Assembly (NCBI GenBank): GCA_903813345.2
Contig: CAIIXF020000003.1
Coordinates: forward strand, 29,525,248 to 29,589,247
Direction: 5' to 3'
DNA: 64,000 nucleotides
Origin: Owenia fusiformis
Taxonomy: Eukaryota > Annelida > Polychaeta > Sabellida > Oweniidae
Made by a program: the position numbers and the translations under genes
In this document: positions 1 to 63,257 of the stretch, piece by piece
How the letters are laid out: each line of letters starts with the position of its first letter
Position numbering within the stretch: the stretch's first letter is position 1
The notes under the pieces: generated by a model
What the model was told of the DNA's origin: nothing
Databases searched by the model: none
Seen by the model: only the letters and a program-made list of their open reading frames with translations

Positions 1-595
1 GAAAAACGATACAATATTTGCAATCTACTCTAAATTGCCTTTGTTTCATTTGAGTATAATAAAGCTATACTTCAGAGAGATCTCAAAATTGACGCAAATT
101 CCTGTTGGTAGCCATTTTGATTTTTCTGAGGCACAATTCAGAAAAACAATACTAGTATCATAATAATGATCTACCCTAAACTTCTTTTAATTTGAGTATA
201 TTATATAGCAATACTTTGAAGAGATCAGAAATTTTTTGCAAAATCTCACATAAGGTGGTCATTTTACAACTATTAACCAATAAGTATCTTTCCACCAAAT
301 ATTAACAAAATCCGTCTACTAGTATTTGAGTTATCTTTGGGACAGACAGATGGACTGAGTGACTGACTGATGAACAGCTTCACTATATCACTACCAAACT
401 TCGTTCCTTGAGAGAATAAAGGTTTAAATATTAACAGATTTTAACAAGCTATCAAATGAAGACTTCTGTTGCCAAACTATTTGAGGGGGGTGTACCTATA
501 ATTACATGCTATTTCTGTCTTGCATATAGGACTGGATCTAACAAGTAGATATCTTCAGTACTTCATATTTGGCTGAGCATTTTTTAATATTTTAC
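1..595 (-). other. SPG7 intron 8 (partial)
   Basis: AT-rich intron DNA running off the edge. It holds two loose copies of a stretch like TTGAGTATA..TTTGA..GAGATC (about 50-130 and 195-275) and a short GACTGA repeat near 355-372. No coding sequence seen. Confidence 0.75.
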
Positions 596-745
596 CTTGA
601 ACTTATCTGCTTTATTAAGGTAGTCCACAAACTCCATCACTTCTATTTTGGCTTCTTTGAGACCTGCTACATCCTTGAACATAATACCTTTACCCTTCTG
701 AGTTTGTAGGTCAACCCTTGTATATTTGGCTTTGCGTTCACCTGC
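596..745 (-). CDS. SPG7: SPG7 exon 8, entrance to the AAA ATPase domain
   Basis: 50 codons, residues 286-335, containing KGKGIMFKDVAGLKEAKIEV and EFVDYLNKADKFK. FKDVAG is the conserved start of the AAA domain in FtsH/m-AAA proteases. Donor GTAAA at 595. The Walker A exon would follow to the left of the window. Confidence 0.96.
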
Positions 746-3700
746 CTGGAATTAATAGAAGATTATCAGTAGTCAATCATGGCCAAACACTCTCAACCAA
801 TCGAATTGCTTATTTACTATTCATTATTAGACAACAATGAACTTTTTGGTAAATAAATGCATTGTTCAAATTTGTACCACAGTTCTATGTCTGGAACCAG
901 GAATCAACAAGTTAATTCCAAGTCAGCTCAGAGCAATGTCACATTCATTTCGATCATTTTATATGCTTTGTGAACAGATAGCCAAAAAGTTAATTACACA
1001 GCAACACATTTAAAAATGAGATTGTTTGTCTCATTATGAATGCTGAATTCATCAACACTGATGAATCTCACGTGTTAATGATAGGACAACAATCTCAATT
1101 TTAATTCATCATTCTTTAAATATTCAATGTTATAGACATATGTAGATATAACACATGGTAAAATGCACTTACAAAAATATCCATAGGGTTTGGCATATGT
1201 ACAATGTACTTACAAACATATCCATAGGGTTTGGCATATGTATAATGCACTTACAAACATATCCATCGGGTTTGGCATATGTATAATGCACTTACAAACA
1301 TATCCATAGGGTTTGGCATATGTATAATGTACTTACAAACATATCCATAGGGTTTGGCATATGTATAATGTACTTACAAACATATCCATAGGGTTTGGCA
1401 TATGTATAATGTACTTACAAACATATCCATAGGGTTTGGCATATGTATAATGTACTTACAAACATATCCATAGGGTTTGGCATATGTAAAATGTACTTAC
1501 AAACATATCCATTGGGTTTGGCATATGTATAACTTAATTACAAACATATCCATTGGGTTTGGCATATGTATAATGTACTTACAAACATATCCATAGGGTT
1601 TGGCATATGTATAATGTACTTACAAACATATCCATTGGGTTTGGCATCTGGACTTTGACATTACGAAACATCATGTACAATCCTAAAGCTATTATCATTA
1701 GTACTGCTACTGACGCCCAAGAACTGAAATAAGAAAACATCAATTAAAACATCCCTCATATTTTTGTTTTTTGTTTCAGAAATCATTATCGAAAAATGAG
1801 GACTTTAGTTTACTGATCAAGTGAGAAAATCACATGTAACTTTATATTCAATAAGACTGAATATTCTCTTATGATTGTAATCATTTTATAAGACTATATG
1901 TCAATAAAACTTATATTACATTTACATTGACTATCTGCATTTTGTGACTTGACTTTAATTCCTTATGATTAAGAAATCAGTAATAAATAAAGTGTTCTTT
2001 AGTAATACATGGTGTCTCATATTGACATTATGCACATACCTGCCCCTCTGGTAGGATATTGGAATACCCTGCTCACGACGTATCCCAAGACCCTCCTCAG
2101 CTTGACGTAACTTCTCCTCAAACCTGTCACTGTCAACTATTTTCATGTGGAATATTGTATTATCCAGCTGTAATAATGATAACCAGAGATCCAATTTAAA
2201 TATGTAAGAATTCTTTATTTAGAAATTCAATGTTGTTTCAATGGATCCATTGTATCCATTACATTAGTGATGCTGGAGCTGTAACTTCAAAGGTGATGAT
2301 GTCCTTAGAAAAGAAAATACCCCAGAATTTGCAGATGAACCCATCTCAATGTAAAAAAAAAGAACCTCTAAATAGAGATCAGTTCATCTATGAACGATGG
2401 AGTGTTCCCCCTCTTATGTCCTTATATCAATCCAAACAGACTTACCCTACGTCCCTTAATGACTGCACCAGGGTACAGTTTGATGACAGCCATCTCCATC
2501 TCAGGTCCAATAATAATCTCCTCAACCTGGAACAATGAGGAAGACAATGTTGAGATTAATACTGAACAAGCATATAGTACAAGCATGGGCTTTCTGGAAA
2601 AGGGTACATTACTTTGTATTTTTAACATTGTGAAAATCTCACAATGAACATTAATCTGCCTCCCTTATTTAATGATATTTCCAGTTAACTTTGAAGGTAA
2701 CTTGAAGAGTCTGCAAATATTTTTTTCATTTATATCACATAACTGATGATGTTAGATCTTGTTGACAAGAGATTTATTTTAAGAGACCCAAATACAAGTG
2801 AAGAACAATGTACTCTAAAAGATTATTGGGATGCTTCTCTTAGTGTACACAGTCGTCATAGTATCTTTCTATGATAAAAATGGTGAACATGTACATGTAT
2901 AATTAATCAAAGGAATAACTTAATGTCCAAATGTCAACAGCTGTGGAAGAACAACATTTTTATTTTTAATTTACTTGATATACAAATCAACAATTTAAAA
3001 TATTGTTATGTAAAGAAAGTAATGGGGTAAACCCATAATGAGATCAACTTCATTTTACCACAACTGTCAACATTCAGACACCATCCTTAATGTACCTCTC
3101 CCTTTGCCAGCATATCATGAACAAACTCAGTCCAAGAGACATAATGAAATCCTGAAGATTTGTCGTCATCTCCAACGAGCCTAGATAACATATACATCAG
3201 AGCAGCAGTCCATAACCACACAAATACCAGGCCTTTTAACGGAGGTTTACCTAAAAAAAAACTTTGTATCTTAGGAAATCATAACAAAAACATGTAGAAT
3301 TCCAAAATACTTTTTAGGATTAAAGACAATGAGTGTGTGGCATGAGACATTGACTATTCAATTTTTCAAAAGTTGCTTGGCTGAATGTATTCATCCAAAA
3401 AGACATAGATCATAAAGGTCCTAAAGGGCAAACAGCACTTTGTAATCAGGCTTTTTATCATTTTTTTTTTTATTTACCCCAAACTTGCAAAGATTCCTAG
3501 ATGAGAACTAAAATTCACCTTATCAATAATAAATGTTCAAATCAAATAAAAGAATTTTTAATATAATGTTTGAACTACCATTTTCATTTCCATCATTTTC
3601 TTTTTTCTCATCTTCATTGTCATGACGACCATCTGGCCTGTGTTGTTGGAGACGAGGATCAGATTTTGAAAACAAGTTAAGAGAATCTGTAAAATATAAT

Positions 3701-11050: not shown

Positions 11051-12320
11051 TCCCATCGAACGAAGTTCGGAGGGATATAGGGAACGCCTCCGTCCGTCCG
11101 TCCGTCCGTACGTCCGTCCGTCCGTACGTACGTACGTCCGTCCGTACGTACGTCTGTCCGTCCGTACGTCCGTCCGTCCGGGCAATAACTCAAATACCGT
11201 TGGCCCGATTTTATTCATATTTTGTATACATATACCCTATGGGGGTAGAAGTTCTGCTCGAAAGTCGATTTTCAAAATGGCCGCTCATTTAAAAATGGCG
11301 GCCATATTAGTGCAGATTTTACAGTAGTTTAGGTGCAATATGTAAAACTGTAATAGCAATATGTTTTAAATGTAAAAAAAATTATATAGGACATTAATAA
11401 AGCTAGAAATGTAGATATTATAAAAGCACATGGCAGCCATCTTGAAAAATGGCGCCCTTTTCTCGTTATTTTACGATTTTTGCTGTAACTCGAAAAGTAG
11501 TTGAGCGATTTTGTTCATATTTGGTATGTGAATACTATAAGCATGGCACACTGTCTAATGACACTTTTGGTAGAAGGTGGCCATTTTGAAAAATGGCGGA
11601 CATTTTGAAAAATGGCCGCCATTTTAAGTTATTTTACTAAAACTCGAAAAGTAGTGGAGCGATTTTGTTCATATTTGGTATGTGAATACGTATAAGCATG
11701 GCACACTGTCTAATGACACTCTTGGTAGAGGGCGGTCATTTTTCAAAATGGCCGCCATTTTAACGTATTTTACTATAACTCGAAAAGTAGTGGAGCGATT
11801 TTGTTCATATTCTGTATGTGAATACTGTAAGCATGGCACACTGTCTAATGACACTTTTGGTAGAAGGCGGCCATTTTGAAAAATGGTGGACATTTTGAAA
11901 AATGGCTGCCATTTTAACTTATTTTACGATAACTCGAAAAGTAGTGGAGCGATTTTGTTCATATTTGGTACGTGAATACGTATAAGCATGGCACACTGTC
12001 TAATGACACTTTTGGTAAAAGGCGGCCATTTTTCAAAATGGCCACCATTTTAACGTATTTTACTATAACTCGAAAAGTAATGGAGCGATTTTGTTCATAT
12101 TTGGTATGTGAATACTATAAGCATGGCACACTGTCTAATGAGACTTTTAGTAGAAAGCGGCCATTTTTCAAAATGGCCACCATTTTAACGTATTTTACTA
12201 TAACTCGAAAAGTAGCAGAGCGATTTTGTTCATATTTGGTATGTGAATATTATAACCATGGCACACTGTCTAATGACACTTTTGGTAGAAGGTGCCCCTT
12301 TTGAAAAATGTTCGATGGGA
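11051..12320. mobile_element. Non-autonomous TIR element A with CGTC array and AAAATGGCGGCC tandem repeats
   Basis: Bounded by an inverted 11-mer TCCCATCGAAC (11051-11061) and GTTCGATGGGA (12310-12320). Just inside the left end is a CGTC/CGTA microsatellite (about 11088-11182). Then six units begin CTCGAAAAGTAG at 11490, 11643, 11780, 11933, 12070 and 12204 (alternating 153 and 137 bp at first), each with palindromic words such as AAAATGGCCGCCATTTT. Open frames through the array are repeat artefacts. No transposase. Confidence 0.7.
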
Positions 12321-12594
12321 TTCGCTACGCTTTGGCGTTGCTGTTGTTCTGGTGTTATACTTTGAGTATTTGGTGGCTCTTCTGAGTAGAACTTACCAAA
12401 TAAAAGATACCGAATGGGGTTTACCTACTTGAAATTCCTTTGACACACCTAGCATGATAAGACATGTTGTCTCATTCCTTCTCAATTAATGCCAATGAGA
12501 TCTTTAAAATCTCAAATGTAGCTTTCATGGCCTTTAAATGTAAAGTGAATGTCTATACTTTGTACATTTGGAACATTACGTAGTTTCATGTTTT
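12321..12594. other. Spacer between TIR elements A and B
   Basis: Plain AT-rich intron DNA; nothing recognised. Confidence 0.6.
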
Positions 12595-15239
12595 TATCGC
12601 ACTTTGAAAAAGTGCTATATTGTCGTCGTCTTGTGCTGTTGGGCGGGCGGGTGTGCGGGCGGGCGGGACATAAACCAAATCTTGTCATCAAATTTCCAGG
12701 ATAACTGCTTACCTGTTCAACTTGAAATTTTTACAGATGTAACAGCAGACTAGTACCAAGATCTGATTAGGTTAAGGGCATGCTGGGTAAACTATGTGGC
12801 GGCCATTTTGAATTTTTCAACAAATCTTGTCATCAAAATTCCAGGAAAACCACTTATCCGTTCAACTTGAAATTTTTACAGATGCAAGAGCAGACTATTG
12901 CCAAGATCTGATTAGGTTTTGGGTATGCTGGCTGAATTACATGGTGGCCATTTTGAAATTTTTCAATTTGGCGGCCATTTTGAATTATTCAACTTGCTCC
13001 AAATTGACCAAATTTTTTTTTAAAAACATCTACAAGTTCTCAGAAGTTCAAATCTGACCTTAGATTTCAGATTTGACCTTTCATTCACCTTCAGTGACCT
13101 TGAAAAGGTCAAAAAAGTTGATTTTCTGAATTGATATTTTGGATTTAAATTTAGGTCAGCTTAATTACAAAACACCTACTGAGGTCTGAAAAAGTGAAAT
13201 TTTCAAGGTCTAAGGTCAAGGTCATTAAACTAGGTCACAAATGATGTTATCCAAGTTTCTCAAAGTTTGAGACTACAAATCAATTCTTGTCATCAAAATT
13301 CCAAGAACACCGCTAACCTGTTCAACTTGAAATTTTTACACATGCAATAGCAGACTAGTGCCAAGATCTGATTAGGTTAAGGGCATGCTGGGTAAACTAC
13401 GTGGTGGCCATTTTGAATTTTTCAAAAAATCTTGTCATCAAAATTCCAGGAAAACCACTTATCCGTTCAACTTGAAATTTTTACAGATGCAAGAGCAGAC
13501 TTTTGCCAAGATCTGATTAGGTTTTGGGTATGCTGGCTGAATTTCATGGTGGCCATTTTGAATTTTTCAATTTGGCGGCCATTTTGAATTTTTCAACATG
13601 CTCCAAATTGACCAATTTTTTTTCTTAAAAACATCTACAAGTTCTCAGAAGTTCAAATCTGACCTTAGATTTCAGATTTGACCTTTCGTTGACCTTCAGT
13701 GACCTTGACAAGGTCAAAAATTTGATTTTCTAAATTGATATTTTGGATTTAAATTTAGGTCAGCTTAATTACAAAACACCTACTGAGGTCTGAAAAAGTG
13801 AAATTTTCAAGGTCTAAGGTCAAGGTCATTAAACTAGGTCACAAATGATGTTATCCAAGTTTCTCAAAGTTTGAGACTACAAATCAATTCTTGTCATCAA
13901 AATTCCAAGAACACCGCTAACCTGTTCAACTTGAAATTTTTACACATGCAATAGCAGACTAGTGCCAAGATCTGATTAGGTTAAGGGCATGCTGGGTAAA
14001 CTACGTGGTGGCCATTTTGAATTTTTCAAAAAATCTTGTCATCAAAATTCCAGGAAAACCACTTATCCGTTCAACTTGAAATTTTTACAGATGCAAGAGC
14101 AGACTTTTGCCAAGATCTGATTAGGTTTTGGGTATGCTGGCTGAATTTCATGGTGGCCATTTTGAATTTTTCAATTTGGCGGCCATTTTGAATTTTTCAA
14201 CATGCTCCAAATTGACCAATTTTTTTTCTTAAAAACATCTACAAGTTCTCAGAAGTTCAAATCTGACCTTAGATTTCAGATTTGACCTTTCGTTGACCTT
14301 CAGTGACCTTGACAAGGTCAAAAATTTGATTTTCTAAATTGATATTTTGGATTTAAATTTAGGTCAGCTTAATTACAAAACACCTACTGAGGTCTGAAAA
14401 AGTGAAATTTTCAAGGTCTAAGGTCAAGGTCATTAAACTAGGTCACAAATGATGTTATCCAAGTTTCTCAAAGTTTGAGACTACAAATCAATTCTTGTCA
14501 TCAAAATTCCAAGAACACCGCTAACCTGTTCAACTTGAAATTTTTACACATGCAATAGCAGACTAGTGCCAAGATCTGATTAGGTTAAGGGCATGCTGGG
14601 TAAACTACGTGGTGGCCATTTTGAATTTTTCAAAAAATCTTGTCATCAAAATTCCAGGAAAACCACTTATCCGTTCAACTTGAAATTTTTACAGATGCAA
14701 GAGCAGACTTTTGCCAAGATCTGATTAGGTTTTGGGTATGCTGGCTGAATTTCATGGTGGCCATTTTGAATTTTTCAATTTGGCGGCCATTTTGAATTTT
14801 TCAACATGCTCCAAATTGACCAATTTTTTTTCTTAAAAACATCTACAAGTTCTCAGAAGTTCAAATCTGACCTTAGATTTCAGATTTGACCTTTCGTTGA
14901 CCTTCAGTGACCTTGACAAGGTCAAAAATTTGATTTTCTAAATTGATATTTTGGATTTAAATTTAGGTCAGCTTAATTACAAAACACCTACTGAGGTCTG
15001 AAAAAGTGAAATTTTCAAGGTCGAAGGTCATCAAATTAGGTCACAAACAATGTTATCTAATTTTTCCCAAAGTTCAAGACTACAAATAAATTCTTGTCAT
15101 CAAAATTGCAGGAAAACCGCTAACCTTGTCAACTTGAAATGTTTACAGATGCAAGAGCAGACTAGTGCCAAGGTCTGATTAGGTTTTGGCCATGCTGGGT
15201 AAATTGCATGGTGGCCAGTTTGCTCTTCAAAGTGCGATA
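12595..15239. mobile_element. Non-autonomous TIR element B containing a 604-bp higher-order satellite rich in AGGTCA
   Basis: Perfect terminal inverted 14-mers TATCGCACTTTGAA (12595-12608) and its complement (15226-15239); the outer TA could be a TA target duplication. Near the left end is a G-rich run (12641-12667). Inside, a unit repeats with exact 604-bp spacing (the GACTACAAATCAATTCTTG word at 13271, 13875, 14479), with diverged partial units at both ends. Middle units look almost identical. No coding capacity found. Confidence 0.8.
12670..15200. repeat. 604-bp tandem array inside element B
   Basis: About four units. Each full unit has nine AGGTCA/TGACCT half-sites, including the direct repeat AGGTCAAGGTCA, the everted pair TGACCTTGACAAGGTCA, and several GGCGGCCATTTTGAA words. 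Each unit is itself a diverged double of a roughly 180-bp part (CTTGTCATCAAAATTCCA recurs twice per unit). Confidence 0.9.
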
Positions 15240-19615: not shown

Positions 19616-20270
19616 GACATGTTATTCCCAACATGTTTCTCATCAACAATTCAGTGTTCTCCCTAATTTTTCAAAAGTGAGTGAATTTCCATCAATTTTC
19701 CTTCAAACTTCCACTACTCACTTTTGAAAAATTAGGGAGAACACTGCATGTTATTCCCAACATGTCTCTCATCAACACATGCTATTCCCAACATATCTCT
19801 CATCAACACATTTTATTCCCAACATGTATCTCATCAACATATGCTATTCCTAACATGTCTCTCAACAACACATGTTATTCCCAACATGTCTCTCATAAAC
19901 ACATGCTATTCCCAACATGTCTCTCATCAACACATGCTATTCCCAACATGTCTCTCATCAACACATGCTATTCCCAACATATCTCTCATCAACACATTTT
20001 ATTCCCAACATGTATCTCATCAACATATGCTATTCCTAACATGTCTCTCAACAACACATGTTATTCCCAACATGTCTCTCATAAACACATGCTATTCCCA
20101 ACATGTCTCTCAACAACACATGTTATTCCCAACATGTCTCTCATAAACACATGCTATTCCCAACATGTCTCTCATCAAGACATACTATTCCGTACATGTC
20201 ACTCATGCATACATGTTATTCCTAACATGTCTTTCATCAACACATATTATTCTTAACATGTCTGATATTC
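19616..20270. repeat. 31-bp minisatellite with 6-unit higher-order repeat
   Basis: About 17 units sharing ATTCCCAACATGTCTCTCAT, spacing 31 bp (for example 19933 to 19964). A block of six units (186 bp) is duplicated (19791 and 19977). All three forward frames stay open because the unit has no stop and 31 is not a multiple of three; the 191- and 132-aa frames are therefore artefacts. The first unit (19619-19651) is split from the rest by a hairpin. Confidence 0.95.
19652..19746. mobile_element. 95-bp perfect hairpin inserted in the 31-bp minisatellite
   Basis: Arms 19652-19681 and 19717-19746 are perfect 30-bp inverted repeats (starting CAGTGTTCTCCCTAATTTTT) with a 35-nt loop. The hairpin sits between a first minisatellite unit and the main array, so it is most simply a small foldback/MITE insertion. 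Confidence 0.85.

Positions 20271-35490: not shown

Positions 35491-63257
<27,767 letters not shown>

Follow-up and report, generated by a model that had tools for sequence, protein, structure and literature searches.

A tandem array of exon-intron junctions lies on the minus strand of the window (the whole 64-kb stretch of DNA that was analysed), at the end of a coding exon of the gene for paraplegin (SPG7), an m-AAA protease. The array exon, 1723-1624, and the exon following it, 745-596, join in frame and remain open, giving an 83-residue peptide. The AAA part of this two-exon peptide found its best match among 16 solved sequences in paraplegin (2qz4, E 8.6e-6), with AFG3L2 (6nyy) third among the solved chains at E 7.8e-4. 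A Pfam search with the same 83 residues returned no family. A Walker A region was recognised by eye downstream, in the neighbouring DNA (L010). With paraplegin as the best solved match and the AAA domain following, the earlier note's assignment of the gene to SPG7 is supported. At least four open exon-like stretches were visible upstream of the array exon, from 3690 to 2040 (edges by eye). The introns flanking the array exon are about 316 nt long upstream and about 878 nt long downstream, as measured from exon edges of which the upstream ones were placed by eye. In human SPG7, a phase-0 intron presumably falls at the codon where the array exon ends. The features of the locus and of related arrays in the genome are collected in Table 1.

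Table 1. Features of the SPG7 locus (window positions) and database-identified donor and acceptor arrays elsewhere in the genome, with the family of the adjoining exon and its E-value.
Feature	Location	Strand	Basis or exon family
SPG7/paraplegin coding exon (array exon), 100 nt, phase 0 end	1624..1723	-	Translation; in-frame join to following exon; acceptor TTTCAG before 1723; its final 24 bases form the exonic part of the unit
Following SPG7 coding exon	596..745	-	phmmer to paraplegin 2qz4, E 8.6e-6; phase 0 join
Preceding exon, edges by eye	2040..2167	-	Open frame LQLDNTIFHMKIVDSDRFEEKLRQAEEGLGIRREQGIPISYQRG; AG and GT flanks
Copy 1 of unit: exon end, GTAAGT donor (1623-1618) and first intron bases; taken as true donor	1607..1647	-	Array register; sole open-frame donor of 12
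Copies 2-12: eleven intronic copies, ten with GTAAGT decoys	1156..1606	-	Tandem Repeats Finder and array register
Copy 2 donor; its TAA is the in-frame stop for use of copy 3 or later	1577..1582	-	Array register and joining script
Copy 3 donor, GTAATT, weakened but GT retained	1536..1541	-	Array register
Donor array L007			Muted/BLOC1S5, 3.7e-14
Donor array L009	G000:C3:17778800-17780400, 1-965		Ist1-family exon 931-1044, minus strand, Pfam 2.7e-4, under Pfam's cut-off
Donor array L011			CTDNEP1, 7.6e-12
Donor array L014	G000:C6:25948900-25953600		Kringle, 2.6e-4, under Pfam's cut-off; plasminogen 2.6e-11
Donor array L016			Il2rg family, 2.4e-7
Donor array L019			PPP2R5E, 2.1e-15
Acceptor array L027	G000:C2:33853300-33855100		Zinc finger, 5.4e-12
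Acceptor array L031			NUP93, 1.2e-17
Acceptor array L032			Photolyase, 3.3e-21

Tandem Repeats Finder placed the array at window positions 1158-1647 with a period of 41, 12.0 copies, 95% matches, no indels and a score of 882. In the register of the exon it spans 12 x 41 = 492 bp (window 1156-1647, minus strand), and its consensus unit consists of 24 exonic bases, ATGCCAAACCCTATGGATATGTTT, followed by 17 intronic bases, GTAAGTACATTATACAT, which open with the donor. Five of the 12 copies (copies 2 and 5-8) are identical and the remainder are near-identical, the period being exact throughout. This bears out the earlier note, which described a minisatellite built from exon-intron junctions, repeated 12 times with an exact 41-bp period and with 24 exon bases per copy. 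TTT occupies positions -3 to -1 in every copy, and private or sparsely shared variants were seen in copies 3, 4 and 9-12. The donor is GTAAGT in 11 of the 12 copies and GTAATT in copy 3 (1541-1536), where the GT is kept. Since the true donor counts among the 11 GTAAGT sites, the previous claim of 11 decoy donors has to be amended: the figure of 11 intact donors in 12 copies stands, but the decoys comprise ten perfect sites and one weakened site.

The array might owe its existence, or a badly wrong length, to the assembly. Copies 5-8 are identical to each other and to copy 2, so that an error in length is possible, and one amphioxus array of this kind was seemingly misassembled in a draft genome, according to the available text of PMC3087553. 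However, a DNA search with a 661-base array query matched the assembly at its own locus and at one weak place, which puts the array at a single place in the assembly, and the variants in copies 3, 4 and 9-12 do not resemble the product of one unit simply stuttering. The contig of 34.9 Mb suggests long reads or scaffolding, and several independent arrays described below share the same anatomy. An artefact is thus very improbable. The DNA search of the assembly found no second haplotype of the SPG7 array; by analogy, polymorphism of its copy number is plausible.

The consequences of using each donor were examined with a script that cut the array exon at the 12 donors in turn and joined it to the following exon. 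Donor 1 was the only one to give an open frame. The unit is out of frame (41 mod 3 = 2), and use of donor 2 gave a frameshift and a stop inside the following exon, 71 nt before that exon's end, while use of any of donors 3-12 gave a stop at codon 47, the in-frame TAA within donor 2. All 11 decoy products contained a stop, which fell 71-556 nt short of the following exon's end, and this confirms the earlier claim that decoys lead to stop codons. At these distances nonsense-mediated decay is predicted if a further intron follows there, and use of any of the 11 decoys is predicted to yield either a decayed message or a broken protease. The proposal that the true donor is the first one transcribed (1623) holds to the extent that this donor alone keeps the protein open, and homology of the protein suggests that splicing would take place there. 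An older precedent of a repeated splice donor is said to be the minisatellite of human IFI6, attributed to Turri in 1995, in which the unit is reportedly 12 bp long and in frame and several of the donors are used. The SPG7 array resembles it as a minisatellite repeating a splice donor but differs from these reported features in its 41-bp, out-of-frame unit and in the stop present in every decoy product (11/11), and hence it lacks the in-frame unit and the several protein-giving donors of the IFI6 kind.

Arrays of this anatomy have been described as mirages in amphioxus, where minisatellite-like tandem duplications of exon-intron boundaries occur at both 5' and 3' boundaries (PMC3087553, available part). 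In the Adh3 mirage the units are 10-72 bp long, and the amphioxus mirages show length and somatic instability (PMC3087553); a troponin C mirage and similar repeats in PGBD5 are also reported (PMC3902484), and in the globins BflGb6 and BflGb9 many, but not all, repeats carry AG/GT signals (PMC3087553, PMC3902484). Splicing was reported to be undisturbed for Adh, including Adh3, for troponin C and for the globins, as far as the available text of these papers goes (PMC3087553, PMC3902484). The SPG7 units likewise span an exon-intron boundary in tandem, the exonic side being identified as exon because it joins the paraplegin-matching exon, and splice signals are present in the copies (GTAAGT in 11/12, GTAATT in 1/12). 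The SPG7 array fits the anatomical definition of a mirage and is not new in kind. It differs from what is described of the amphioxus examples in its host gene and in its 12 copies at an exact 41-bp period; the present genome resembles amphioxus in having such arrays at donors and acceptors. In the literature searched, with relevance judged by title, mirages were found only in amphioxus (PMC3087553, PMC3902484), and the present genome may be a second lineage that has them. Models of COX1 and hemerythrin, tried as markers of the organism, gave no match. In human genes within segmental duplications, variable minisatellites at exon-intron boundaries are also reported to form new introns and to give rise to alternative splicing among recent paralogues (PMC2812944, available part). 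The SPG7 array shares the position of those repeats; however, it lies behind an exon of a conserved gene, and no feature observed there points to a new intron.

Donor arrays elsewhere in the genome were collected by genome-wide pattern scans and from the one weak DNA match. Three GTAAGT placed 26-56 bp apart gave 7,013 matches genome-wide vs 7,154 for the reversed control. The first 100 rows for this pattern formed 10 clusters, four of which were one look-alike sequence by eye; the other six were read. Among the matches listed, two of these six had exon ends (L007 and L003) and four had no exon by eye (L004, L005, L006 and L008). The pattern of three CAGGTAAGT gave 141 rows, and all 11 clusters among the 100 rows listed were read. 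An exon family was found at the first copy in 4 of these 11 (CTDNEP1, PPP2R5E, Il2rg family and kringle), an open exon by eye lacking a solid family in 5 (L012, L013, L015, L017 and L020) and no exon by eye in L018 and L021, again among the matches listed. The weak Pfam matches in this set were of L012 to DUF4845 (0.047) and of L015 to the PI3K p85 inter-SH2 model (0.043). The weak DNA match of the SPG7-array query, L009, has a 46-bp unit in at least 21 copies, with its donors partly lost (GTAAAT in copy 2). In all, six further donor arrays adjoin an exon with a family at E<0.001, namely BLOC1S5, CTDNEP1, PPP2R5E, Ist1, Il2rg-family and kringle. The uniqueness of the SPG7 array that the earlier note implied cannot be upheld, the same structure being present in other genes of this genome and already named in the literature. 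Both in SPG7 and in every database-identified donor array, it is the copy transcribed first that closes the homologous exon.

Three of these arrays had features of their own. After the kringle exon of L014 there are about 67 copies of a 44-bp unit, in which 32 of 402 donor positions are changed; this is perhaps an older mirage. The array of L003 (G000:C1:441700-444700, 1007-1988) follows the end of a tetraspanin-like exon (Pfam 0.058, weak) and has 18.2 copies of a 54-bp unit; this unit keeps the reading frame, and no stop occurs in the 600 nt of read-through analysed, so that each extra donor would add 18 residues (e.g. VSSIYIIIGIGIGIGVVE). A 120-bp tandem pair just upstream of the L003 array duplicates the acceptor and much of the exon. 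In L012 (G000:C3:6491600-6493300, 871-1168) a 17-bp unit (GTAAGTTCATTTTTCAG in rotation) is repeated 17.5 times directly after an open frame ending in ASDRFIFQ, and this unit resembles a tiny intron because it holds both a donor and an acceptor. We take the L012 gene to resemble KIAA0895/MATCAP; a Pfam search of its exon gave no confirmation of this.

Acceptors are arrayed as well. The pattern of three TTTTNCAGG gave 174 rows vs 92 in the control. The 100 rows listed formed 23 clusters, of which 20 were read, L012 being among the remaining three. Among the matches listed, 3 of the 20 had an exon after the last copy with a family at E<0.001 (NUP93, photolyase and zinc finger), three more had weak matches (2OG-FeII oxygenase 0.006, myosin 0.010 and ANF receptor 0.013), five had an exon-like open frame by eye (L025, L028, L030, L034 and L035) and nine were not exon-like. 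Pfam searches with the open frames of L025, L028, L030 and L034 returned no match, and L035 gave a weak one (0.054). Ahead of the zinc-finger exon of L027, an acceptor mirage, the acceptor pattern matches 22 times at a spacing of 54-58 bp. In the NUP93, photolyase and zinc finger arrays the exon begins at the last transcribed acceptor copy.

These acceptor arrays bear on the possibility that donors are chosen on a first come, first served basis, with U1 committing co-transcriptionally to the first donor made and later copies never competing. Such commitment would agree with the exon ending at the first transcribed copy in every database-identified donor array. However, synthesis order alone fails as a rule for both sides of the exon, since the three acceptor arrays start their exons at the last copy: a choice of the first site transcribed would explain only the donor arrays, whereas a choice of the site nearest the exon would explain donor and acceptor arrays alike. 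We regard commitment by order of synthesis as unlikely. The donor-first, acceptor-last pattern is itself partly built in, since duplication of a boundary leaves an untouched exon on that side. Protein homology, together with the stops in SPG7, indicates that the exon-proximal site must be the one used if a working product is to be made.

The earlier note had attributed the retention of the donor consensus to youth of the array or to selection. The divergence of the donor hexamers was therefore compared with that of the rest of the unit in ten donor arrays, copy 1 being excluded. L007 was included; L013 was left out on the ground that the open frame of its exon continues across the repeats. Among the ten, L015, L017 and L020 have an exon by eye only and L003 has a weak family match. 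For the SPG7 decoy donors, divergence was not significantly below that of the remaining unit positions (1/66 vs 12/384, p=0.70), and the same held for the pooled decoy donors of the ten arrays (53/1,626, 3.3%, vs 439/11,010, 4.0%, p=0.17). Pooling with L013 and without L007 gave 58/1566 (3.7%) for donors vs 435/10436 (4.2%) for the rest. Donors were less diverged than the rest in L016 (p 0.009) and L020 (p 0.010) and more diverged in L015 (p 0.013), with the same lean in L014 (p 0.066). In arrays away from exons (L004, L005 and L008, the unit of L005 being doubtful) the figures were 35/642 (5.5%) for donors vs 285/3813 (7.5%) for the rest. The search pattern demanded three intact donors, so that the sample favours intact donors if anything. 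Overall there is no sign of selection on the decoys, though a few arrays could be under selection. Of the two explanations offered earlier, youth is favoured and selection is not; the SPG7 array is probably a young, neutral minisatellite.

This comparison also weighs against a functional device for unproductive splicing, in which use of decoys would divert a share of the SPG7 mRNA into decay, with the output tuned by the length of the array. The SPG7 DNA would also be compatible with productive transcripts occurring beside decayed ones: all 11 decoys introduce a stop, located 71-556 nt ahead of the following exon's end, and ten of them keep a perfect GTAAGT. Nevertheless, the decoy donors show no significant excess of conservation, either in SPG7 (p=0.70) or when pooled (p=0.17). 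The same structure occurs in unrelated genes with differing frames, L003 and L017 being open over the 600 nt of read-through examined, and acceptors are arrayed too. Furthermore, amphioxus mirages reportedly leave splicing undisturbed, in the available text (PMC3087553, PMC3902484). A regulatory role for the array is accordingly improbable, somewhat more so than commitment to the first donor made.

The interpretation that we prefer, with a probability of roughly 0.8, is that the SPG7 array is a mirage minisatellite whose exon-proximal donor is used through exon definition and whose decoys are neutral passengers. A short tandem duplication straddling the SPG7 exon-intron junction would have seeded the array, which may then have grown by slippage or unequal crossing-over. 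As it sits in the intron, the array would be removed together with it. Recognition of the exon as a whole would hold the spliceosome to the copy-1 donor: U1 bound there, closest to the acceptor of this exon, would pair across 100 nt of exon, vs 141-551 nt for the decoys. The decoys would be tolerated, their donor sequence being kept by the youth or homogenisation of the array without selection. The anatomy, the effects of each donor on frame and stops, the presence of such arrays in other genes and the lack of a significant conservation excess in the decoys are direct results; the splicing at copy 1, exon definition as its cause, the mode of growth and the neutrality we infer.

Experimental work on competing sites is in line with this interpretation. 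When minigenes spliced by exon definition offered a pair of identical CAG/guaagu donors, with flanking introns of 365 nt, the upstream donor was used exclusively, according to the available text of PMC9225289. The SPG7 upstream intron, at about 316 nt, is slightly shorter than the introns of these minigenes. The earlier note's suggestion that splicing faces a hard choice among near-identical sites is thus not supported. Among all human donor-pair events, before matching for strength, the same text gives a preference for the downstream 5' site in about 60% (PMC9225289). At acceptors, exon definition significantly reduced the upstream preference without plainly reversing it (PMC9225289, available part), and so the acceptor half of an exon-proximal rule is the weaker one.

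Two further properties of the arrays were considered. By number of rows, triples of CAGGTAAGT exceeded their control (141 vs 56), which favours donors. By number of clusters, 11 were found for CAGGTAAGT in the 100 of 141 rows listed, which reach C9, vs 5 of the control's 8, these being the ones in C1-C9; the enrichment of CAGGTAAGT donors in arrays was not significant (Fisher p=0.13), with the single sites genome-wide, 4,020 vs 4,455, as rough denominators. Given this value and the three-GTAAGT counts (7,013 vs 7,154 in the control), no claim is made that donors attract minisatellites. A bias of the period towards multiples of three was rejected (5/10 arrays, p=0.32).

A single array would be a curiosity; the value of these arrays lies in their recurrence, on both sides of exons and beside conserved genes whose protein sequence is known. 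In arrays of near-identical splice sites the strength is near constant and the position varies, which suits a test of exon definition in a living animal, and in such a genome RNA-seq could address exon definition without the building of minigenes. It is conceivable, though we hold it only tentatively, that the genome is rich in mirages at donors and acceptors which act as natural competition tests, that on either side of the exon the exon-proximal site prevails, and that in-frame open units such as that of L003, with its 18 residues, give rise to protein length variants. The arrays also have a bearing on the origin of new introns, and in gene prediction annotation programs may turn array copies into false exons.

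The 64-kb window is rich in minisatellites, three further long ones being present besides the SPG7 array, at 19747-20263 (31 bp x 16.7), 40451-40928 (43 bp x 11.2) and 43890-44597 (25 bp, about 28 copies). Window positions 11478-14804 hold nested tandem repeats of 135, 145 and 290 bp; several contain CATTTTGAAAAATGGCC-like palindromic pieces, and together they are perhaps a mobile-element family.
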